Part shown: positions 5,683 to 57,216 of the stretch, piece by piece | How positions within the stretch are numbered: the stretch's first letter is position 1 | Layout of the letters: each line of letters starts with the position of its first letter | From: Litchfieldella anticariensis FP35 = DSM 16096 | Lineage (GTDB): Bacteria > Pseudomonadota > Gammaproteobacteria > Pseudomonadales > Halomonadaceae | Direction of reading: 5' to 3' | Assembly (NCBI RefSeq): GCF_000409775.1 | Contig: NZ_KE332392.1 | Location: 164,459-228,458, forward strand | Length of the DNA stretch: 64,000 nucleotides | Translations under genes and position numbers: made by a program | Notes under the pieces: model-generated | What the model was told of the DNA's origin: nothing | Seen by the model: the letters and a program-made list of their open reading frames with translations, nothing else | Database searches by the model: none

Positions 5683-6139
5683 GATGATCTCCTGTTAAAC
5701 ACTCATGTCATTCGACAGTGTCGTGCAAGGGGCGATCCCATGCCTAATGAATGGCTTTATCACAAGATGAAAGTTAACGATTCGTAAACGCTTGTGACGA
5801 CTAGGATTAGCATTAAGTGAAAAGCACTCAAAAGGTGGTATGTTTTGCGCTAAAGTAGGACGTGGTGATATCCGCAGTCAGCCACGGTGATAGGACGTGT
5901 CATTGGCCCTGCATAGGGTTTGCGGCTATAACTCATCCAAGCCCTTCGGTTAGGGCGAAGGCTTGATTAGCATTGGCCGTGCGATGGGGAGACGAGACCT
6001 GTCGCCTGGACGAGGCTCGGGTACGTTACCAGTATGCCGTACGAGCCAGGCCAAACTTGGTCTGGTGAGATGACAAGTCAGGAAACAACGAGGCGGCAAG
6101 TCCGTCAGCAATGGTGCCAACAATTCAAGAGGTGTCTTC
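5683..6139. other. Intergenic region between macro-domain gene and TAXI-TRAP operon
   Basis: This 457-bp stretch separates divergent genes and must hold promoters for both. It contains a hairpin-forming inverted repeat at 5939-5964 (AAGCCCTTCG and CGAAGGCTT around a 7-base loop, with one bulged base). No convincing small gene, RNA gene or further operator was seen. Confidence 0.5.
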
Positions 6140-7120
6140 ATGAAACGCCACGCTTTCACCGCTGCAGCCTTTACGAGTGCGCTTCTCGGAGCGGCAATGG
6201 TCTCGTCACCGGCGGTTGCGCAGGAACGCTTCATCACAATCGGGACTGGCGGTCAGACAGGGGTTTACTATGTCGTCGGTCAGTCGGTCTGCCGTCTGGT
6301 CAACCGCGGCGCTGAAGAGCACAACATTCGTTGTAACGCTCCTTCGACCGGTGGTTCCGTGGCCAACGTCAATGGCATCAAGTCCGGCGAACTGGACATG
6401 GGGGTCGTTCAATCCGACGTTCAGTATCAGGCCTACAACGGCACCGGCAACTTCGAGGGAGAAGCCTACGAGGATCTTCGCGCCGTGTTCAAGATCCATG
6501 GTGAGCCGCTTACCGTGGTGGCGCGCACCGATTCAGGCATCGAAACCTTCGACGACCTCGAAGGCAAGCGTGTCAACATCGGCAATCCGGGCTCTGGTCA
6601 GCGCAACACCATGGAAGTGGTCATGGAGGCCAAGGGCTGGAACGTGGATACTTTCTCCCTGGCGTCACAGCTCGATGCTGCCGAGCAGGCTTCTGCCCTG
6701 GCGGATAACAACATCGATGCCATGGTGTATGTGGTCGGCCATCCCAACGGTTCCATCCAGGAGGCCACCACTACCGTCGATGCACGCCTGATTCCGGTAA
6801 CGGGTCCTGCGATCGATGGCCTGGTCGAGGAATACCCCTATTACGCCAAGTCGGTGATCCCGGGTGGTTTGTATCGTGGCAACGAAGAGGATGTCGATAC
6901 CTTTGGCGTGGCAGCTACTTTCGTGACCTCGGCCGATACCGATCCTGACATCGTCTATGAGACCGTCAAGGCGGTATTCGAGAACTTCGATCGCTTCAAG
7001 CGTCTGCATCCGGCCTTCGAAAACCTCAACGAGGAAGAGATGATCTCTCAAGGTCTGTCGGCGCCGCTGCATGAAGGTGCCAAGCGCTATTACGTAGAAC
7101 GTGGCTGGATCGAGGAATAA
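6140..7120 (+). CDS. TAXI-family TRAP solute-binding protein
   Basis: The periplasmic binding protein of a TRAP-associated extracytoplasmic immunogenic (TAXI) system, 326 residues. A signal peptide ends at AVAQ (about residue 29). The TAXI signature follows: FITIGTGGQTGVYYVVGQ, then a GGSVANVNGIKSGELDMG loop, and FDDLEGKRVNIGNPGSGQ. The start at 6140 has a GAGGTG site. The fused permease follows after 122 bp. Ligands of TAXI proteins are varied (for example glutamate, ketoglutarate) and cannot be assigned here. Confidence 0.92.
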   Translation: MKRHAFTAAAFTSALLGAAMVSSPAVAQERFITIGTGGQTGVYYVVGQSVCRLVNRGAEEHNIRCNAPSTGGSVANVNGIKSGELDMGVVQSDVQYQAYNGTGNFEGEAYEDLRAVFKIHGEPLTVVARTDSGIETFDDLEGKRVNIGNPGSGQRNTMEVVMEAKGWNVDTFSLASQLDAAEQASALADNNIDAMVYVVGHPNGSIQEATTTVDARLIPVTGPAIDGLVEEYPYYAKSVIPGGLYRGNEEDVDTFGVAATFVTSADTDPDIVYETVKAVFENFDRFKRLHPAFENLNEEEMISQGLSAPLHEGAKRYYVERGWIEE

Positions 7121-7242
7121 TCTAGTCTGTAAGGAGTGATAGGCTCCACGAATGATGCGCGGTCATCCGGTCGGAGGCCGCGCATTGTGGTTTCTGCACT
7201 TCATTCTTTCTTGTGTCGACTGATGGCGAGCAGGGCAAGCTT

Positions 7243-48429: not shown

Positions 48430-48479
48430 GTCCGTGGACTATCGTCATGACAGGTTCTTCGCTCACCAGGAGAGTCATC

Positions 48480-49025
48480 ATGAGCATTCGTCGACACAAG
48501 ATCGCACTGGGGCTGATAGTGGCATTGGGTGTAGGCACTACAGGGCTTGCCGTTGCCCAAGGCATGACCGGAGACACAATGGGCCCCAGCATGATGGGCG
48601 GCCAGCAAGGCATGGGCCCGGGGATGATGATGGGGCCGGGCATGATGGGCGGCATGATGCCGTGCCCGATGATGGGCGGTGCCGGCATGAGCACGTCTGG
48701 TGGTGCCATGCCAAACGATCTAACGCCCAAGCAACACGAGGAAATGCGTCGGCTCATGCATGAGCACCGGCCTGCACAGTTCGAGCGCATGGGAGAAATG
48801 ATGAACCTGCGCGATGACCTGATGGCCCGGATGAGTGAGCCCCGCCCCGATCCAGAAGAAATTCGGGCCTTGCACGATCGCGTGGCCGACCTGCAAGGCG
48901 AGATGTTGAGCGAGCGGATGCGACTTCACAATGCCATGCATGACCTGTTGACCGAAGCGCAGCGCGAGCGCTTGCAGGAAGCCCCGGTGCCGCCGGCCGG
49001 TGACGGCCATTCCGAGCATCACTGA
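48480..49025 (+). CDS. Met-rich periplasmic metal-binding protein (Spy/CnrX-like)
   Basis: A 181-residue exported protein: signal peptide (about residues 1-27, ending AVAQ), a Met/Gly-rich stretch (MMGGQQGMGPGMMMGPGMMG and more, about residues 30-70), then a helical Spy-like hairpin (LTPKQHEEMRRLMHEHRPAQ, RLHNAMHDLLTEAQRERL). The Met-rich part suits Cu(I) or Ag(I) binding. AGGAGAG precedes the ATG at 48480. It lies 71 bp before the copper P-type ATPase, so periplasmic copper capture or sensing is likely. Confidence 0.82.
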   Translation: MSIRRHKIALGLIVALGVGTTGLAVAQGMTGDTMGPSMMGGQQGMGPGMMMGPGMMGGMMPCPMMGGAGMSTSGGAMPNDLTPKQHEEMRRLMHEHRPAQFERMGEMMNLRDDLMARMSEPRPDPEEIRALHDRVADLQGEMLSERMRLHNAMHDLLTEAQRERLQEAPVPPAGDGHSEHH

Positions 49026-49044
49026 CGTCGAGCGTTGTTGTCGT

Positions 49045-49067
49045 GGCGGCGGGCAAAGCCTGCCGCC
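49045..49067 (+). terminator. GC-rich hairpin between the Met-rich protein and ATPase genes
   Basis: Arms GGCGGCGGGC and GCCTGCCGCC (10 bp, one G-T pair) with a 3-base loop, 20 bp after the stop. It lacks a clear T-run and may attenuate rather than end transcription. Confidence 0.5.
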
Positions 49068-49096
49068 GCTTTCCTGTTGATGAGGAGCGCCGCCAG

Positions 49097-51388
49097 ATGG
49101 CAACCGCAGCAGATCCCCAAGAATTTGAGCTGACGGTACCTGGCATGGGGAGCGATCACTGTGCGGGTATCGTGCGACAGACCCTTAAACGTCTTCCCGG
49201 CATAGGCGATATTCATACCAATATCGCTAGCCATCGTGTCTCGGTAACCGTCCAGCCGGGCGGGCCTGATGTCGATGCCTTGCGTCGAGCGGTGGAGGGT
49301 GCCGGCTATGATGTGGCGGCAGTTCGCGGTGCCGAAGAGGCGGAGGATACCGACTCAGATGTAAAGGTCGAGGAGACTTACCTAGCCACAGCGCGTAAGC
49401 GGCTGTGGATCGCCGGTGTCCCCACGGCACTGATCATGGTCTTGATGATGCCTCACATGTTTTGGCAGCCGATTCCGGGTTACTTGGCAATCATCGCCAT
49501 CCTCGCTTTCCCGGTGGTGTTCCTTTACGGTGGGGCGGCGACCCACAAGGCTTCATGGCGGTCGCTGACCAACCGTACCTTCAACATGGATGTGTTGATC
49601 TCCCTAGGAAGCTTGCCACCCTATCTGATCGGCTTGGTCGGCTTCGTCTACCCGATGACCTCGTTCATCGAGATGGCCGCCACCATCATGACCTTCCACC
49701 TGCTCGGGCGTTACCTCGAGGCTCTGGCCAAGGGACGTGCCTCCCAGGCCATTCGCCGCCTACTGACTCTGGGTGCCAAGACGGCGCGGGTGGAGCGTGA
49801 CGGTGAGGAGGTCGAGATAGCAGTCAAGGAACTCGCTCCCGGCGACATTATGATCGTGCGCCCCGGCGACAAGGTACCTACCGACGGCGAAGTGATCGAG
49901 GGGGAAAGCCATCTCGATGAATCGATCGCCACCGGTGAGTCGGTGCCGGTGTACAAGGGCGTCGGTGACAGCGTGATCGGTGCGACCATCAACAAGGAGG
50001 GCAGGCTACGGGTCAAGGCTACCCGGGTCGGTGGCGAGACATTCCTTGCCCAGGTGGTGCGTCTGATCGATCAGGCCCAAGGTTCGCGGGTACCGATCCA
50101 GGAGTTCGCAGACCGCATGACCGGGCGTTTCGTGCCGCTGGTGATCTTGATTTCCCTCGCCAGCTTGATGGGTTGGCTGATCGTGCCAGATGCTCTGCGC
50201 CCGATCCTCGACTGGGGCGCCACCTTCCTACCCTGGGTGAACCCCGAGGCGGCCGTACCGGTACTGGCGATACTCGCCGCGATTGCCGTACTGGTCATTG
50301 CCTGCCCCTGTGCCTTGGGCCTGGCTACGCCGACAGCGCTGATGGTTGGCTCGGGCATAGGCGCCGAGCACGGTATCCTGATTCGATCTGGCGAAGCGAT
50401 CCAGACCTTCAAGGACGTCAAGGTGATGGTGCTCGACAAGACCGGCACCATCACTCGTGGAGAACCGAAACTGACGGACGTCGTGCCTGCAGAGGGTATC
50501 GACGAGTCAAGGCTGTTGACGCTGGCGGCAAGCGTGGAAAATGCCTCGGAGCATCCTATTGCCCGTGCCATTGTCGAGGGGGCAAGGGCACACGGTATTC
50601 GTCCCATCGAGGTGAGTGAGTTCCGCTCCACCGGGGCGCGTGGCGTCGTCGGCCTGGTGGAGGGCGAGCGTGTGCTGATTGGTAATCGCCGCCTGCTGGA
50701 GGAAGACGGTGTCACCGGCCTGGAGGCGCTGGAGGACAAGCTGCAGCGTCTCGAGTCGCGTGGGCGCACCGCCGTGATCGTGTCGTCCTCTGGTCGTGCG
50801 CAGGGCATCGTGGCCGTGGCCGATACCCTCAAGGAAGAGTCAATGGAGGCAATTCGTGGCATGCACGCGCTGGGCCTGCATGTGGTGATGATCACCGGCG
50901 ACAACGAGCGTGCCGCACGCGCGGTGGCCGATGAAGTTGGCATCGACGAAGTGCAGGCTGGCGTGCTGCCCGAGGGCAAGATCGACGCCATCCGTGCCTT
51001 GCAGGAGAGGTATGGCCCCCATGTGGCCATGGTCGGCGATGGCATCAACGACGCCCCGGCGCTGAAACAAGCCAATGTCGGCATCGCCATTGGTGCAGGG
51101 GCTGACGTCGCCATCGAGGCGGCGGACGTGACCCTGGTACGCGGCGAGCTGACCGGCGTAGTGGATGCCATGCACCTCTCCCGTGCCACCTTCAGCAAGA
51201 TCGTGCAGAACCTGCTCTGGGCCAGTGCCTACAACGTGGCGGCGATTCCCATTGCCGCTGTTGGCTTGTTGCATCCAATGATTGGGGTCATCGCCATGAC
51301 TACCAGCTCGCTGTCGGTGATCGGCAACTCGTTGCTGCTCAAACGGCGCTATGCTCGCCTACAGCCCAGAGGAGGAAGAGCCTCATGA
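49097..51388 (+). CDS. Copper-exporting P1B-type ATPase
   Basis: A 763-residue heavy-metal P-type ATPase exporting Cu(I) or Ag(I) from the cytoplasm. One N-terminal HMA-like domain has the degenerate motif GMGSDHC, with a single Cys, instead of GMTCxxC. Then follow about eight helices, TGES phosphatase loop (ATGESVPV), the CPC metal site (Cys403-Pro-Cys405), phosphorylated Asp447 (DKTGTIT), GDGINDAP hinge and the C-terminal copper signature YNVAAIPIAA and MTTSSLSVIGNSL. ATG 49097 has GAGGAG ten bases upstream. It overlaps the DUF2933 gene by 4 bp. CopA/CtpA type; symbol withheld to avoid confusion with the oxidase copA. Confidence 0.93.
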   Translation: MATAADPQEFELTVPGMGSDHCAGIVRQTLKRLPGIGDIHTNIASHRVSVTVQPGGPDVDALRRAVEGAGYDVAAVRGAEEAEDTDSDVKVEETYLATARKRLWIAGVPTALIMVLMMPHMFWQPIPGYLAIIAILAFPVVFLYGGAATHKASWRSLTNRTFNMDVLISLGSLPPYLIGLVGFVYPMTSFIEMAATIMTFHLLGRYLEALAKGRASQAIRRLLTLGAKTARVERDGEEVEIAVKELAPGDIMIVRPGDKVPTDGEVIEGESHLDESIATGESVPVYKGVGDSVIGATINKEGRLRVKATRVGGETFLAQVVRLIDQAQGSRVPIQEFADRMTGRFVPLVILISLASLMGWLIVPDALRPILDWGATFLPWVNPEAAVPVLAILAAIAVLVIACPCALGLATPTALMVGSGIGAEHGILIRSGEAIQTFKDVKVMVLDKTGTITRGEPKLTDVVPAEGIDESRLLTLAASVENASEHPIARAIVEGARAHGIRPIEVSEFRSTGARGVVGLVEGERVLIGNRRLLEEDGVTGLEALEDKLQRLESRGRTAVIVSSSGRAQGIVAVADTLKEESMEAIRGMHALGLHVVMITGDNERAARAVADEVGIDEVQAGVLPEGKIDAIRALQERYGPHVAMVGDGINDAPALKQANVGIAIGAGADVAIEAADVTLVRGELTGVVDAMHLSRATFSKIVQNLLWASAYNVAAIPIAAVGLLHPMIGVIAMTTSSLSVIGNSLLLKRRYARLQPRGGRAS

Positions 51389-51633
51389 GTCGACATCATT
51401 CTCCAGATAGCTCGTCTACGAATGGCGGGTCACCGAAGGGCCCACATGGAGGGTTCTGGCATTCGACCATGGGGATCGTCTGCCTGGTACTCATGAGCGG
51501 TGCTGTCGCACTGCTGATGTGGCGAAGTCATACGTCGCTCACCAATAGTTGGTGGCTGCTGCTGCCATTGGTATTGTGTGTCGGCATGCATCTATTGATG
51601 CACCGTGGGCATGGCCATCGCAAGGAGGATTGA
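51385..51633 (+). CDS. DUF2933 family small membrane protein
   Basis: An 82-residue protein with two membrane helices (MGIVCLVLMSGAVALLMW and WLLLPLVLCVGMHLLMH) and a His-rich C-terminus (HRGHGHRKED), the DUF2933 pattern. It starts in the ATPase stop (ATGA), so the two are co-translated. DUF2933 genes commonly accompany copper and other metal-resistance genes, but function is unknown. Confidence 0.88.
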   Translation: MSRHHSPDSSSTNGGSPKGPHGGFWHSTMGIVCLVLMSGAVALLMWRSHTSLTNSWWLLLPLVLCVGMHLLMHRGHGHRKED

Positions 51634-51667: not shown

Positions 51668-52918
51668 TCAATGTTTTGCCAAGTTCGGGGGAGACGCGGT
51701 GGGCTTGAGACCTAACACCCGAGCCTCTTGGCGCCGCCGTCGATATAGGTCCCAGCCGGTGGCGGCGACCAGCAGCAGGAAGCCGACCAGTTCGATCAGA
51801 ATGTGGTAGTCGACGAACAAGGTATATAGCAGGATGCCCGTGGCAATGACGCCCACCACGGTCGGGCCAAGGCTTCGGTGGCGGCGCATGCCGGCGGTGA
51901 TCGCTGCCAGCGTAAGCAGCACGAAAAGCGCAATGGCAGTGGCCCAGGCACCTTCGTTCAGGCTCAAGCCGAGACCCAGCAAGGGCAGCAGCGCCACCAC
52001 GGCCAAGGTGCCATAGCAGGTCAGCAGAGCCATGAGCAAGGCGGCCATACCCGCCAGGCTACGACGATGGATAGCTGCCAGCCAGCGTCGCGGGTCGAGG
52101 TGTCGCAACCAGCGCTTTAGCGGTGGTGGTGCTACCGGGCTGCGGCGCATGCTGAGTTCGATGGAGTGAGCGCCGAAGCTAGCGGCAATTTCCTGGGTTT
52201 GCGCGCTGGGGCTGTGGGCGAAATAGTCGAGTGTGCGCAGTATCCGGATGTCCTCGAATCCAGCGTCATGGAACAGCGTTAGCAGATCCTCTTTTACCGT
52301 GGCGCCGACCACGCATTCGACCCATAGGCGTGGGTCGTCATGGCAGTCCACCGAGACTGGGCGATGGATGACCACATCGGCGAGTTGCAGCCGTCCCTTA
52401 GGGCGCAGTACCCGGAACATCTCGGCCACCGCACGGCGCTTGTCCGGCACCAGGTTCAAGGCGCCGTTGCTAGTGATGCTGTCCACGCTGGCGTCGGCCA
52501 GCGGCAAGCGCTCCGCTGAAGCCTGGATAACACTGATGTTGTCGATGCTGTGCTCATCGATGCTGGCCTTTAACTTGCGGGCCATGGCATGTGTCAGATC
52601 CAGGGCAATCACATGCCCCTTAGGGCCGACTAGCCGACTGGCGATCAGGCTATCGATGCCGGCGCCGGACCCGATATCCAGGACCCTGTCGCCCTGCTGT
52701 ATCGCTTCGGCACGAAAGGGATAGCCGACCCCGGCGAAGGATTCCACGAGCGACTTGGGAAGGTCGTCGATACGTTCCGGCGGATAGCCCAGCAAGCGAC
52801 ACGCCGAACCACCGACGGGAAAGTGGAAGGGCGAGGTGGGCGAGTCGGCCACGGCGGTGTACATTCCTTGGACCGCCGCGAAGATCTGCTGCCGGGAATA
52901 GCCGAGTATGGCGACCAT
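51668..52918 (-). CDS. ArsM-like methyltransferase fused to a MerC-like membrane domain
   Basis: A 416-residue two-part protein. Residues 1-250: SAM-dependent methyltransferase (motif I VLDIGSGAGID, about residue 80; LPLADASVDSITSNGALNLV; VLRPKGRLQLADVV) most like arsenite methyltransferases in layout. The Cys normally found in the SNC segment is Gly; Cys remain in VDCHDDPRLWVECV. Residues 285-395: four membrane helices resembling MerC (GMAALLMALLTCYG and following), with only one Cys. Third gene of the sigma/anti-sigma operon, 17 bp after the anti-sigma stop. A paralogue sits across the divergent promoters. Substrate unknown. Confidence 0.8.
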   Translation of the reverse strand: MVAILGYSRQQIFAAVQGMYTAVADSPTSPFHFPVGGSACRLLGYPPERIDDLPKSLVESFAGVGYPFRAEAIQQGDRVLDIGSGAGIDSLIASRLVGPKGHVIALDLTHAMARKLKASIDEHSIDNISVIQASAERLPLADASVDSITSNGALNLVPDKRRAVAEMFRVLRPKGRLQLADVVIHRPVSVDCHDDPRLWVECVVGATVKEDLLTLFHDAGFEDIRILRTLDYFAHSPSAQTQEIAASFGAHSIELSMRRSPVAPPPLKRWLRHLDPRRWLAAIHRRSLAGMAALLMALLTCYGTLAVVALLPLLGLGLSLNEGAWATAIALFVLLTLAAITAGMRRHRSLGPTVVGVIATGILLYTLFVDYHILIELVGFLLLVAATGWDLYRRRRQEARVLGLKPTASPPNLAKH

Positions 52919-52935: not shown

Positions 52936-53199
52936 TCAGTTCGTGGAATTCGTTTCGTCGGTGTCGAATCGGTCGAGCAGATCCTTGACCCGCCGACGTA
53001 AACGCTGCGGGGCTTGCACACTGACGGATTTCTCGACCTTGGCCCGCAAGCGCTTTTCGAACTCCGCACGGGAGAAGCAGTCACGGCAGCGCTCGAGGTG
53101 GCGCTCGATATCGGCCCTATGCTGGCTGCTCACTTCTCGATCGAGGTAATCGAAAAGCTGCTCGATGACTTCCTCGCAGGTCAGTTCTCTTCTGGTCAT
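52936..53199 (-). CDS. Zinc-finger anti-sigma factor (zf-HC2)
   Basis: An 87-residue soluble protein with the zinc-binding anti-sigma motif His34-x3-Cys38-x2-Cys41 (HLERCRDC), preceded by EVIEQLFDYLDRE and followed by a basic helix. There is no membrane helix, so the signal is read in the cytoplasm, as in ZAS proteins that respond to oxidants or metals through the Cys pair. It overlaps the sigma gene by 4 bp (ATGA), the usual sigma/anti-sigma coupling. Confidence 0.9.
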   Translation of the reverse strand: MTRRELTCEEVIEQLFDYLDREVSSQHRADIERHLERCRDCFSRAEFEKRLRAKVEKSVSVQAPQRLRRRVKDLLDRFDTDETNSTN

Positions 53200-53846
53200 G
53201 ATGGCTTTCCCTCCGTGCCACGGCAGTCGACCGTGAAGCCGGCTTCCCTGGCCTGCTTCCAGAGCACCTTCTGCAGCATCGCTCGGCCCCGGCTCAAGCG
53301 GGAACGTACCGTACCCAGCGGTATCCCGAGCAATTCGGCCACTTCACCGTACGTACAGCCCTGCACCTCCACGAACACAACGATCACTCGATACGGATCC
53401 GGCAGGGCATCCAGTGCCTGCTGCAAGTCATCTTGCAGGAGTTCGTTGAGAAAACGGTCTTCGGTGCTGCCCCACCACAACAGAAACGGTTGGTGAAGTT
53501 GCTGGAATAGCGAGAAATGGGTCGCATCGAGATCGTCCGGCTCGCAGTTATCAGGGTCGTCTGCCAGCTTCGGCCTACATTGCCGACGGCGCCATTCGTT
53601 GATGAACGTATTGTTCAGGATATGGAACAGCCAGCCCTCGAAGCGCTCGGGATCGCGCAGTTCGTCCAACTTTGTCCAGGCCTTGCCGATCGACTCGGCA
53701 ACGATGTCCTCGGCATCGTCGGGGTGGCGTGTCAGGCGCAGTGCCGTGCCGTAGAGGCGATCCATCAGGCGTTCGATCTCATGCTCGAACCACTGACGCC
53801 GGCGTTGCCGGGATAGGCCATCGCCCGAAGAAGAAGATGCAGACAT
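53196..53846 (-). CDS. ECF sigma-70-family RNA polymerase sigma factor
   Basis: A sigma factor of about 216 residues: region 2 (LYGTALRLTRHPDDAEDIVAES, then GWLFHILNNTFINEWRRR) and region 4 (LDALPDPYRVIVVFVEVQGCTYGEVAELLGIPLGTVRSRLSRGRA). The start is uncertain: 53846 has GAGGG close by, while an ATG at 53942 would add 32 Arg-rich residues. It probably drives its own operon and the divergent methyltransferase from the two twin promoters at 54011-54043 and 54064-54096, and is held by the anti-sigma factor. Confidence 0.92.
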   Translation of the reverse strand: MSASSSSGDGLSRQRRRQWFEHEIERLMDRLYGTALRLTRHPDDAEDIVAESIGKAWTKLDELRDPERFEGWLFHILNNTFINEWRRRQCRPKLADDPDNCEPDDLDATHFSLFQQLHQPFLLWWGSTEDRFLNELLQDDLQQALDALPDPYRVIVVFVEVQGCTYGEVAELLGIPLGTVRSRLSRGRAMLQKVLWKQAREAGFTVDCRGTEGKPS

Positions 53847-54010
53847 CGTCGCCCTCGAATCGCCTGGCTGAGGATCCCGGTCTGTGCCGGGTGAAGACAG
53901 CCTATGGTTCCTGAAAGAAACCAACGCTTCCTTATTGAGCATGGGTCATCCCCGTGTGGTGGGCAATTCGGGACATGTAGACGTCCTGGCCCGAAGAAGC
54001 CGCCCTCCAT

Positions 54011-54043
54011 CGCCAGGACGCAGCCGGGAGCGAAATGGTTCCC
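54011..54043 (-). promoter_or_regulatory. ECF-type promoter towards the sigma factor operon
   Basis: On the minus strand: GGGAAC, 17-base spacer, CGTCCTGGCG. The same two blocks with the same spacing occur divergently at 54064-54096. GGAAC and CGTC are typical ECF -35 and -10 elements. Confidence 0.75.
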
Positions 54044-54063
54044 GGTGCGCCCGCGAAAAAATC

Positions 54064-54096
54064 GGGAACATTTGTGACTCGCCGCGCGTCCTGGCG
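54064..54096 (+). promoter_or_regulatory. ECF-type promoter towards the second methyltransferase
   Basis: Plus strand GGGAAC, 17-base spacer, CGTCCTGGCG, mirror partner of 54011-54043. The -10 block lies 60 bp before the methyltransferase start. Confidence 0.75.
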
Positions 54097-54155
54097 GCAC
54101 ACGGTTCCGGTACACCGTGAAAAACCACGAACAAGCAGAGAAGGAGGACAGACCC

Positions 54156-54947
54156 ATGGCTATTGCAGCACGTGAACAGGATTCGGCGCTGGACCGTTTG
54201 GACCTCGAGCGTCAGGTCAAGGAGATGTATCGGCAGGTCGCGGAGCAGCCGAGAGGAGAATTTCATTTCGAGATGGGGCGTGGCCTGGCCGAGCGGCTAG
54301 GGTATTCGCCCAAGGACCTGGACCGGATTCCCGCCGAGGCGATCGACTCTTTCGCCGGAGTGGGGAATTTCTTCGACCTGGCGGCCATTGTCCCAGGCGA
54401 AGTGGTGTTGGACCTGGGCAGTGGCTCAGGAATGGATACTTTCCTCGCCGCGCTCAAGGTGGGCCCCGAAGGACATGTTTTGGGCTTGGACATGACCGAA
54501 GCCCAACGCCTCAAGGCCCAGCGCCTGGCCAGGGAGTCGGGATTCGAGACGGCCGAGTTCCATGCCGGCTACATCGAAGAGTTGCCTTTCAAGGATGCCA
54601 GCGTCGATGTGGTGATCAGCAACGGCGTGATCAATCTCTCGGCAGACAAGCCGCGTGTCTTCCACGAGGTGGCTCGGGTGTTGCGCGCCGGTGGGAGGCT
54701 AGCAATCGCCGATATCGTCACCGAATCACCCTTGCCCGAGCAGGTAAAGTGCAATGCTACCCTGTGGGCGGCCTGCATCGGTGGTGCCATCCAGCAGGAC
54801 GACTATCGCGCGGCGATCGAAAGCGCGGGGTTGCGTGTCCAGACCGTTCGCGAACACCCGGAATACCGCTTCCTGACCGAGTCGGCCCAAGGGGCCAGCC
54901 GCACCTACGGCGTCAAGAGCATTTCCCTGCTGGCGATTAAGTCTTAG
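54156..54947 (+). CDS. ArsM-like SAM-dependent methyltransferase
   Basis: A 263-residue cytosolic methyltransferase with motif I VLDLGSGSGMD, LPFKDASVDVVISNGVINLS and VLRAGGRLAIADIV. It is arsenite-methyltransferase-like but the Cys of the SNC segment is Gly; two Cys lie 8 residues apart (Cys199 and Cys207 in KCNATLWAACIGGA), of which the second matches the conserved C-terminal ArsM Cys. It is similar to the N-terminal half of the MerC-fusion protein (both share LGY.P, SFAGVG.F). AAGGAGG is an ideal ribosome-binding site. It is driven by an ECF-type promoter. Confidence 0.85.
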   Translation: MAIAAREQDSALDRLDLERQVKEMYRQVAEQPRGEFHFEMGRGLAERLGYSPKDLDRIPAEAIDSFAGVGNFFDLAAIVPGEVVLDLGSGSGMDTFLAALKVGPEGHVLGLDMTEAQRLKAQRLARESGFETAEFHAGYIEELPFKDASVDVVISNGVINLSADKPRVFHEVARVLRAGGRLAIADIVTESPLPEQVKCNATLWAACIGGAIQQDDYRAAIESAGLRVQTVREHPEYRFLTESAQGASRTYGVKSISLLAIKS

Positions 54948-55040: not shown

Positions 55041-57089
55041 TCAGGAAGGTGTGCCGAGTGCTTCCGCTTCGCCAATGGAGCCGGGCATGGCATGCACCGC
55101 GCCGTTCTGGGTGCTTAGTGCCAGGAAGTGAATGTGGCGTTCGTACTCGGCTAGTACGTCACTGATCACCTGGCCACGGGTGTAGCCGTTGAGATCCTGA
55201 CCGAGTCCGCCCTCGGTGAGATAGACATCCAAGCGCAAGTAGTAATCGTCGTTCATCGGCAAGAAGCTCGGTGCACGCATGCGATGCGGGCGCACCTGGT
55301 AAACGAAGTTCTGGGCATTGTCGAACTCCACCTGCAGCGTCAGGCGTGGCAGCGGCTCGCCTTCGACCTGCTCCTCGCTGACGTTGGCCGTCTGGCCACG
55401 GCTTTCGAGTTCCTCGGCGAACTGGGTCAGGGCCGGACGAATCGAGTGCTCAATGACGGCGGCAGCCCCGGCACGGCTGGAGGTATCCAGTGCGCGGTCG
55501 AGGCGTTCGCGCCAGTCGCCACCCGGTGCGGTGCCAGTGATCCGGCGACGGGCGTTGGCCTTATCGTCTTCCATACGCAAGGCACGATAGGTGCCGGCCA
55601 TGATAGCGAAGATCACCACTGAGAACGGCAGTGCAGTGATGACCACCGCACTTTGCAAGGCGGATAGGCCGCCGGCCATCAGCAGCGCGATGGTGACCAA
55701 GCCGATCACTGCCGACCAGAAGATACGCAGCCTGATCGGTGCGTCATGATTGACGTCGGAAAGGATCGAAGTGAAGTTGGCCAGTACCAGCGCGCCAGAA
55801 TCCGCCGACGTCACGAAGAACACGATACCCAGGATGGTAACCACGCCTGCAGTGGCGATGGCCCAGGGGTAGTGTTCGAGCAGGGTGTACATGGTGGTCT
55901 GGGGCGTGTTCAGGGCCTGTTGACCGAGTTCGATGACACCCTGGTTGGCGACCAGTTCGATGCCGCTGTTACCGAACACCGACATCCAGATCATCATGAA
56001 AGCCAACGGGATGCCCAAGGCACCAGCGACGAATTCGCGGATGGTACGGCCACGTGAAATACGTGCCAGGAACAGGCCGACGAACGGGGTCCAGGCGATC
56101 CACCAGCCCCAGAAGAAGATGGTCCACCACCCCTTCCATTCATTGGCTTCGGCGCCGGCATAGGCATAGGTGTCGAAGCTCTTGGCGATGAAGCCCGAGA
56201 AATAGTCGCCGATGTTATTGACCGCCATGTCGAGCAGCTTCAGGGTCTGGCCCTGGAACAGCACGAACAGCAGCAATGCCACAGCCAGCAGCATGTTGAA
56301 TTCCGACAGGCGACGAATGCCTTTGTCGACACCACTGACCACCGAGATGGTGGCGATTACCATGACCAGAGCGATAAGGATGATCTGGACCGACAAGCTC
56401 TCAGGCACGTCGAACATGTAGTTCAGCCCGTAGTTGAGCTGCATGACCCCGATGCCCAAGCTGGTGGCGATACCGAACACGGTGGAGACAACCGCGGTGA
56501 TGTCCACGGTGTGCCCGATCGGGCCGTAGATGCGCTTACCCAGCAGTGGATAGAGTGCACTGCGGATCGACAGTGGCAGGCGATGGCGATAGCTGAAGTA
56601 GGCCAGTGCCATACCCATCAGCACATAGAGCCCCCAGCCGGACAGCCCCCAGTGAAAGAACGTTTGAACCACTGCAGCGCGCATTGCTGCCTGGCTTTCC
56701 GGCACGAGGTCCGGCGGTGCCAGATAGTGAGAGAGTGGCTCGGCGACACTGAAAAATAGCAGGTCGATGCCGATACCTGCGGCGAACAGCATCGCCGACC
56801 ATGAGAGCAAGGAGAACTCTGGCCGTGAATGATCCGGGCCGAGGCGGATACTACCGAAACGTGACATGCCAATGGCGATGACGAAGACCAGGTATGCCAC
56901 CACCGCCAGCATGTAATACCAGCCAAAGGTTTCGCTGACCCAAGCCAGGGCGGCATCGAAGAAGGCGCCGGCCTGCTCGGTGAAGGTCATGGTGATTACG
57001 AGAAAAACGAGAATGCCGGCAACCGAGCCGTGGAATACGGCAGGATTGAGTCGATCTCGTCTTGTAGGCACAGCATTGTCATGCGCCAT
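55041..57089 (-). CDS. betT: BCCT-family choline transporter BetT
   Basis: A 682-residue transporter with 12 membrane helices (residues 20-510) and a long cytosolic C-terminal domain of about 165 residues. BCCT signature: FFWGWWIAWTPFVGLFLARISRGRTIREF; choline/betaine aromatic box (TFFHWGLSGWGLYVLMG). The long tail is the hyperosmotic sensing part of BetT-type choline importers; choline uptake feeds glycine-betaine synthesis. Start 57089 has GGGAG; longer start 57146 is unlikely. A 13-bp inverted repeat at 57217 is a BetI-like operator. No betIBA genes are in the window. Confidence 0.93.
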   Translation of the reverse strand: MAHDNAVPTRRDRLNPAVFHGSVAGILVFLVITMTFTEQAGAFFDAALAWVSETFGWYYMLAVVAYLVFVIAIGMSRFGSIRLGPDHSRPEFSLLSWSAMLFAAGIGIDLLFFSVAEPLSHYLAPPDLVPESQAAMRAAVVQTFFHWGLSGWGLYVLMGMALAYFSYRHRLPLSIRSALYPLLGKRIYGPIGHTVDITAVVSTVFGIATSLGIGVMQLNYGLNYMFDVPESLSVQIILIALVMVIATISVVSGVDKGIRRLSEFNMLLAVALLLFVLFQGQTLKLLDMAVNNIGDYFSGFIAKSFDTYAYAGAEANEWKGWWTIFFWGWWIAWTPFVGLFLARISRGRTIREFVAGALGIPLAFMMIWMSVFGNSGIELVANQGVIELGQQALNTPQTTMYTLLEHYPWAIATAGVVTILGIVFFVTSADSGALVLANFTSILSDVNHDAPIRLRIFWSAVIGLVTIALLMAGGLSALQSAVVITALPFSVVIFAIMAGTYRALRMEDDKANARRRITGTAPGGDWRERLDRALDTSSRAGAAAVIEHSIRPALTQFAEELESRGQTANVSEEQVEGEPLPRLTLQVEFDNAQNFVYQVRPHRMRAPSFLPMNDDYYLRLDVYLTEGGLGQDLNGYTRGQVISDVLAEYERHIHFLALSTQNGAVHAMPGSIGEAEALGTPS

Positions 57090-57216
57090 GGGGTTGACTC
57101 CCTTGTGTTGTTGATATTCGTTTCGCGCCTCGGGGCGGTGCGACATATCGGGCTGCCCGCATGAGACGGGGAGCGCCGAGAAGTGAGGGCGTCCTGAGTG
57201 TCACTCGTTAGTTGCT

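Follow-up and report, generated by a model that had tools for sequence, protein, structure and literature searches.

Several described systems resemble parts of the locus analysed here. In the actinobacterial pairs SigR-RsrA and SigH-RshA, which belong to group ECF12 of the extracytoplasmic function (ECF) sigma factors and serve the response to thiol-oxidative stress, disulfide stress oxidises the zinc-site cysteines of the anti-sigma factor RsrA and the sigma factor is freed; SigR controls thioredoxin and mycothiol genes (PMC4360819; this and the other papers are cited from partial text). According to the excerpted text of a published survey, RsrA-group anti-sigma factors are reported from Actinobacteria only, and non-actinobacterial ECF12 sigma factors have no RsrA-group gene in their neighbourhood (PMC7406223). 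A zinc anti-sigma domain also occurs in ChrR of the Rhodobacter ECF11 pair RpoE-ChrR (singlet oxygen), together with a cupin-like domain (PMC8999054). On the enzyme side, ArsM is usually under ArsR/SmtB control (PMC8649762). The sulfide and methanethiol S-methyltransferases MddH, MddM and MddA form another group; MddH is a cytoplasmic UbiE-family enzyme dependent on S-adenosylmethionine (SAM) and widespread in marine Gammaproteobacteria, transcription of mddA and mddH rises with H2S and/or methanethiol (MeSH), and such methyltransferases are proposed to detoxify those gases, with no control by an ECF pair mentioned in the excerpted text of that paper (PMC12904073). The present analysis concerns a stretch of 64,000 nucleotides (the window) of Litchfieldella anticariensis FP35 (contig NZ_KE332392.1, positions 164,459 to 228,458), in which a sigma/anti-sigma pair and two ArsM-like methyltransferases are arranged around two divergent ECF-type promoter sites. 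Judged from related loci, it is very probable that the sigma factor reads both promoters and so couples its own operon to the second methyltransferase.

The features of the locus are as follows.

51668..52918, minus strand: methyltransferase 1, an ArsM-like domain with a C-terminal MerC-like four-helix domain (Pfam Methyltransf_31 and MerC)
52936..53199, minus strand: zinc-type anti-sigma factor, soluble, RsrA-like, 87 residues (zf-HC2)
53196..53942, minus strand: ECF sigma factor, SigH/SigR-like (Pfam Sigma70_r2 and Sigma70_r4_2)
54011..54043, minus strand: ECF-type promoter CGGGAAC-N16-GCGTCCTGGCG (exact sequence), predicted to drive sigma factor, anti-sigma factor and methyltransferase 1
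54064..54096, plus strand: ECF-type promoter CGGGAAC-N16-GCGTCCTGGCG (exact sequence), predicted to drive methyltransferase 2
54156..54947, plus strand: methyltransferase 2, ArsM-like and SAM-dependent (PRK11873)

This gene content had been named in an earlier note on the same DNA, and Pfam and curated profiles bear it out; two of the gene starts need qualification. The open reading frame (ORF) of methyltransferase 2 is open from 54117, with 54156, the start conserved in relatives, the most likely one. The start of the sigma factor is uncertain, homology beginning at residues 4–49 depending on the relative. The anti-sigma ORF overlaps the end of the sigma gene by 4 bases.

Both promoter sites have the form GGGAAC-N17-CGTCCTGGCG and point away from each other, exactly as the earlier note had described them; the minus-strand site (54043 to 54011) reads GGGAACCATTTCGCTCCCGGCTGCGTCCTGGCG and the plus-strand site (54064 to 54096) reads GGGAACATTTGTGACTCGCCGCGCGTCCTGGCG. 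The exact motif GGGAAC-N17-CGTCC occurs in the 64-kb window at the twin sites only. When up to two mismatches were allowed, the window contained 27 matches against 24.5 expected, which is chance level, so that a match is informative only when exact or nearly so. The genome searched comprised 5,070,590 bases (5.07 Mb) in 21 contigs. GGGAAC-N16..18-CGTCC matched four times, the N17 form again at the twin sites only, and the same pattern read backwards matched 25 times. The longer form CGGGAAC-N16-GCGTCCT, with at most one mismatch, was found twice in the 5.07 Mb, at the two twin sites (backwards control, 10). The two remaining matches of the looser pattern have the form GGGAAC-N16-CGTCC. One (L001) was rejected; it lies inside a 730-residue ORF of the opposite strand. 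The other (L002, minus strand, 1501–1527) reads GGGAAC-N15-ACGTCC, a form accepted by the pattern of the wider set described below and absent from all paired sites of the family; it stands 60 bases upstream of a 255-residue ORF on the same strand. That ORF (L002:673-1527) has a signal-like N-terminus and, from the promoter position of the site, is a possible, weak extra member of the regulon. The small, self-contained regulon envisaged in the earlier note holds in so far as the strict motif is confined to the locus in this genome; the looser L002 site lies elsewhere, and in relatives the regulon appears wider (cupins, DsrE, globin). The same promoter pair is present in Litchfieldella qijiaojingensis (NZ_BMXS01000004.1).

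The sigma factor is present in 22 of 201 genomes of the Halomonadaceae, and 20 of those loci were taken with wide flanks to follow the motif. By hand count, 19 of the 20 loci carry two sites, one on the side of the sigma gene and the other ahead of a further module gene; the remaining locus (L040) has the latter and lacks the former. In 17 of the 20 loci the sites lie next to each other as a divergent pair, with a gap of 2–41 bp, and the spacer is 17 in all 34 paired sites (15–18 was allowed). In two genomes (L034, L036) methyltransferase 2 sits 1.6–1.7 kb from the sigma promoter and retains its own site, which begins 82 bases before the gene. Across the 22 carrier genomes, GGGAAC-N16-GCGTCYT yielded 37 matches, 33 of them at the locus (backwards pattern, 9 in all); one of the four off-locus matches is in L. 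qijiaojingensis, before a globin gene.

A wider set was obtained from a methyltransferase 1 scan of named genomes, which gave 154 stretches and 121 relatives, the best 80 being kept (L077–L156, close relatives included). These 80 loci are mostly from Proteobacteria: Halomonadaceae, Marinobacter, Thioalkalivibrio, Ectothiorhodospiraceae, Aquisalimonas, Saccharospirillum and other Proteobacteria (many of them metagenome-assembled genomes, MAGs), along with MAGs of Nitrospirae and Gemmatimonadetes and a single actinobacterium. The set also includes a 5-kb contig of a euryarchaeotal MAG (L155) that encodes a methyltransferase 1-like protein and on which no sigma gene was found; contamination is possible. 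The sigma gene is present in 74 of the 80 loci; the motif lies upstream of at least one module gene in 63 of the 74 and on both divergent sides in 38. Enough upstream DNA was available for 73 of the sigma genes, and 52 of these have the motif on the same strand within −500..+100 (backwards pattern, 0 of 73). When the upstream range is narrowed to −500..0, it precedes 47 of the 73 genes; of 14,600 mononucleotide shuffles, 9 had it. In 49 non-redundant loci (<80% identity in methyltransferase 1), an unbiased count of 6-mers ahead of the sigma gene ranked GGGAAC first, in 29 loci against 3.75 expected, and GCGTCC was likewise found in 29 (6.47 expected). The consensus is CGGGAAC-N16-GCGTCC-T/C-T-G, and an N15 form appears in several distant lineages. 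In a Muproteobacteria MAG (L153:4231-5053) three motif copies lie within 0.9 kb, near the starts of DsrE, DUF1858 and sigma genes.

By this comparison the twin sites appear as real promoter-like sites of one type, attached to the sigma gene and to methyltransferase 2 (or a cupin). The comparison likewise brings out the motifs, their attachment to module genes, the gene set and the zinc ligands treated below; from these we infer that the sigma factor reads the sites and that transcription starts there. The pairing of divergent promoters, the autoregulation of the sigma operon and its coupling to methyltransferase 2, all put forward in the earlier note, gain support from the related loci.

The best family match of the sigma factor is TIGR02947 (SigH_actino), still so at 144.2 bits with the cutoff of 251.55 not reached. 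Among solved proteins the sigma factor comes closest to a SigH-containing chimera (6jcy, E 1.3e-32) and to SigH itself (5zx2, E 2.1e-32), and SigH structures rank ahead of SigE, SigW and RpoE. The anti-sigma factor narrowly misses the cutoff of the RsrA model TIGR03988 (60 bits, cutoff 62.5) and is matched by solved RsrA (5frf, E 6.2e-6). Its zinc ligands C8, H34, C38 and C41, which have the RsrA arrangement of a C followed by H-x3-C-x2-C, are kept in 75 of 75 relatives, and no further Cys is found at any aligned position. A search by eye for a membrane helix revealed no hydrophobic stretch in the 87 residues, in agreement with the cytosolic zinc-type anti-sigma factor of the earlier note.

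The resemblance to SigR-RsrA and SigH-RshA thus comprises a sigma factor nearest SigH/SigR, a soluble anti-sigma factor nearest RsrA with the same ligand set, and adjacent, apparently autoregulated genes. The present module differs in being found mostly in Proteobacteria, in its promoter (GGGAAC-N16-GCGTCC, compared with GGAAT-N18-GTT for SigR) and in its outputs, which would be ArsM-like methyltransferases, cupins and DsrE. With ChrR it shares the zinc anti-sigma domain and a cupin encoded in the module of relatives; unlike in ChrR, the cupin is separate and apparently exported, and the anti-sigma factor has no cupin domain. The match of the relatives' cupin to Cupin_7 (ChrR-cupin) is weak (26.2 bits, cutoff 27). 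These sigma/anti-sigma pairs are either an unreported extension of the RsrA group or a member of another ECF group, and the sigma factor may carry a group number in the main published ECF reclassification.

The nearest solved sequences of both methyltransferases are ArsM/AS3MT. The AlphaFold2 model of methyltransferase 2 has a mean predicted local distance difference test (pLDDT) score of 90.5, with CrArsM, ArsM and human AS3MT as nearest solved folds; that of methyltransferase 1 has 86.7, with four C-terminal helices within residues 289–401. Against PRK11873 (cutoff 263) the scores are 234.5 bits for methyltransferase 2 and 180.2 bits for methyltransferase 1, both below, and the other ArsM-named models listed are also under their cutoffs for both enzymes. 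The cysteine positions of ArsM were read from PDB alignments; PDB titles name Cys72 and Cys224, and Cys174 is the third arsenite cysteine. The equivalents of Cys72/Cys174/Cys224 are Val/Gly/Cys in 45 of 45 methyltransferase 1 sequences and in 33 of 33 methyltransferase 2 sequences. In the former set, which was collected through FAGVG[YC]PF and DPRLWVEC, the Val and Cys columns are in part a product of selection; the latter set was not pattern-selected. A second Cys, 10 or 8 residues before the Cys224 equivalent, is present in 33 of 45 and 29 of 33 sequences, respectively. The enzymes therefore share with ArsM/AS3MT the fold, the SAM-binding motif and the Cys224 equivalent, and differ in the Val and Gly, in the fusion of methyltransferase 1 to MerC and, set against the usual ArsR/SmtB control, in their place behind a predicted ECF promoter.

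The MerC match of methyltransferase 1 (48.2 bits) exceeds the Pfam cutoff of 27.6. The MerC mercury transporter has paired cysteines for Hg(II). In the MerC-like part here, a single Cys is conserved among 20 sequences (C301, 20 of 20) and a conserved CxxC is absent from them; a mercury function of this domain is thus unsupported and was rejected on the cysteines. At ten distant loci the methyltransferase 1 ORF has 260–281 residues, too short for the MerC-like part. At L139 a separate MerC-like gene (6630–7193; Pfam MerC 20.4 bits, below the cutoff) directly follows methyltransferase 1, which indicates that fusion or fission of the domain has occurred. Together with the single conserved Cys, the short ORFs and the separate gene suggest that the MerC-like part is a membrane anchor more than a means of mercury uptake.

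The methyltransferase family (E 1e-30) and the sigma factor occur in the same 22 of the 201 family genomes, methyltransferase 1 in all 22 carriers and methyltransferase 2 in 15. Seven carriers lack methyltransferase 2, and there the divergent promoter stands before the gene of cupin A (L029, L032, L037, L038, L041, L042, and L045 with a remnant). The ORF that follows the L045 site at 5811 on the minus strand begins as a remnant of the methyltransferase 2 N-terminus and runs into this exported cupin, apparently a deletion that spared promoter and cupin. Cupin A, which looks secreted, is found in 13 family genomes, all among the 22 carriers and all at the locus; cupins are suspected in the reactive-chlorine response (PMC9751292). 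A sulfur-relay protein of the DsrE type, ~122 residues long and with a CxxC motif, is encoded at 11 of the 80 wider-set loci, in distant lineages, and in 7 of these 11 its gene lies less than 200 bases from methyltransferase 2. The genes for cupin, DsrE, methyltransferase 2, sigma factor, anti-sigma factor and methyltransferase 1 have a common orientation at L129.

In L. qijiaojingensis (L179:920-1530) a third exact site stands before an apparently exported truncated haemoglobin. Close copies of this globin occur in seven family genomes, four of them with the sigma factor; the site precedes the gene in two of the four (G005, G020) and in none of the three genomes without sigma factor. In a gammaproteobacterial MAG (L145), too, the site lies ahead of an exported globin, one that belongs to the same Pfam family. 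We read cupin, DsrE and globin as probable accessory outputs of the same sigma factor in relatives, and DsrE, the exported cupins and the exported truncated haemoglobin would favour a regulon for thiol or reactive-sulfur stress. The distribution of the module appears patchy. In samples searched at E 1e-60, own genome included and all counts being lower bounds, it was found in at least 7 of 369 genomes of the class (5 candidates scored per genome) and at least 4 of 398 genomes of the phylum (4 candidates scored per genome).

In the proposed mechanism the RsrA-like anti-sigma factor, whose cysteines all serve as zinc ligands, would keep the SigH/SigR-like sigma factor bound in the cytosol. Stress by a thiol-active agent (oxidation, an electrophile or reactive sulfur) would damage the zinc site and free the sigma factor, which would then fire the minus-strand promoter, raising sigma factor, anti-sigma factor and methyltransferase 1 (feedback), and the plus-strand promoter, raising methyltransferase 2. 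The two ArsM-derived enzymes, one of them with a membrane domain, would methylate a soft nucleophile, most likely sulfide, a thiol or a persulfide. Taken as a whole, a self-contained stress regulon with a thiol-type signal and sulfur-type methylation is on balance probable. Considered singly, a signal of the thiol type is probable, and of the targets proposed in the earlier note the thiol-reactive agent remains the better half. A sulfur substrate is a tentative choice; it is preferred because of the DsrE linkage, the RsrA-like sensor, the retained Cys and the analogy with the H2S and methanethiol methyltransferases, to which the enzymes are likened by description and proposed function, not by sequence. 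The most specific version, in which a widespread regulon outside Actinobacteria uses an RsrA-type thiol sensor to free the sigma factor, the ArsM-derived enzymes, their arsenic site lost, S-methylate toxic sulfide or persulfide to volatiles, and DsrE, cupins and haemoglobin aid some lineages, is doubtful.

Several observations weigh against the proposed regulon. A zinc anti-sigma domain can be structural and not sensory (PMC7406223). The strict motif is lacking in the near-upstream range of 21 of the 73 sigma genes, and 11 of the 74 sigma-bearing loci have no motif before any module gene; these 11 are mostly distant relatives, and two of them (L121, L134) are at contig ends. The searches behind the co-occurrence scored at most 13 candidates per genome. 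A sigma-70-type promoter was not found, an absence that carries no information, as shuffles average 0.7. The window genome has neither cupin A nor the globin in the genome searches (for the truncated haemoglobin of L. qijiaojingensis, no match at E 1e-10), and only two of the four sigma-bearing globin genomes have the motif (it is absent in G118 and G174). No DsrE gene was found in the window or in the examined DNA of any Halomonadaceae locus, so the hint of sulfur comes from distant lineages. In a survey of flanking ORFs (107 hand-picked from 249, mainly short ones from loci other than those of Halomonadaceae, with five added from L142 and L153), 102 Pfam families were counted in 112 ORFs; DsrE was the commonest with 9 of 112, which is not an unbiased rate, some DsrE genes having been known before the count.

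The substrate is the part of the proposed regulon for which alternatives carry most weight. The enzymes might act on a C or N acceptor (a lipid, a quinone or a small metabolite), with the sulfur genes as incidental neighbours. Their fold is common to many small-molecule methyltransferases and methyltransferase 1 could be membrane-located through its MerC-like domain, but the Cys at the ArsM Cys224 position is invariant in both enzymes, linkage to DsrE recurs and the sensor is RsrA-like; we regard such an acceptor as unlikely.

Alternatively, the regulation could be as proposed and both enzymes methylate a metalloid (arsenite, selenite or tellurite) at a cysteine-poor ArsM-type site. A metalloid was one of the two targets suggested in the earlier note, and it has lost ground: Val and Gly take the place of Cys72 and Cys174 in all sequences examined, both proteins miss the curated ArsM cutoffs, and no arsenic-resistance family is among the 25 commonest of the 102 flanking families. 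Identity as a plain ArsM fails on these cysteines. Against this, sequences and folds point to ArsM/AS3MT as nearest solved relatives, all 45 and all 33 sequences retain the Cys224 equivalent, commonly with a second Cys nearby, and a working one-cysteine ArsM in Thermus methylates arsenite (PMC8649762). The loss of two of the three arsenite cysteines weakens the metalloid role; with a one-cysteine ArsM published, we retain it as quite unlikely.

A reading of the inverted sites as a single palindromic operator or hairpin for a repressor, and not as two promoters, is highly improbable and was rejected for the variable gap and the singly occurring copies: the arms are near-complementary and the single strand folds at z = −2.8, beating all 200 shuffles, but the gap ranges over 2–41 bp across 17 family loci, the copies are 1.6–1.7 kb apart in L034 and L036, lone copies stand upstream of single genes (L130, L145, L148, L179), and the internal spacer is 17 for every one of the 34 family sites.

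Two groups of neighbouring genes may be mentioned. A BetT-type choline transporter of the BCCT family (55041–57146) is a frequent neighbour in Halomonadaceae loci and was treated as synteny. Beyond the sigma operon and convergent with methyltransferase 1, positions 48447–51633 encode a Metal_resist/LTXXQ protein, a copper-type P1B ATPase and a DUF2933 protein; no site of this sigma factor with at most one mismatch precedes these genes.

No description of this module was recognised among the literature matches listed, subscription journals being mostly outside the literature searched. Each part is of a known kind, and the combination, the promoter and the distribution are absent from those matches. 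With its well-delimited promoter, its sensor and a small set of genes that stay together from phylum to phylum, the module makes the signal and substrate of a cysteine-depleted branch of the ArsM family directly testable. It would extend RsrA-type sensing beyond Actinobacteria, its range in the excerpted text of the published survey (PMC7406223). Should the substrate prove to be sulfide, methanethiol or persulfide, a redox-sensing sigma circuit would be tied to the production of volatile sulfur in halophilic bacteria.

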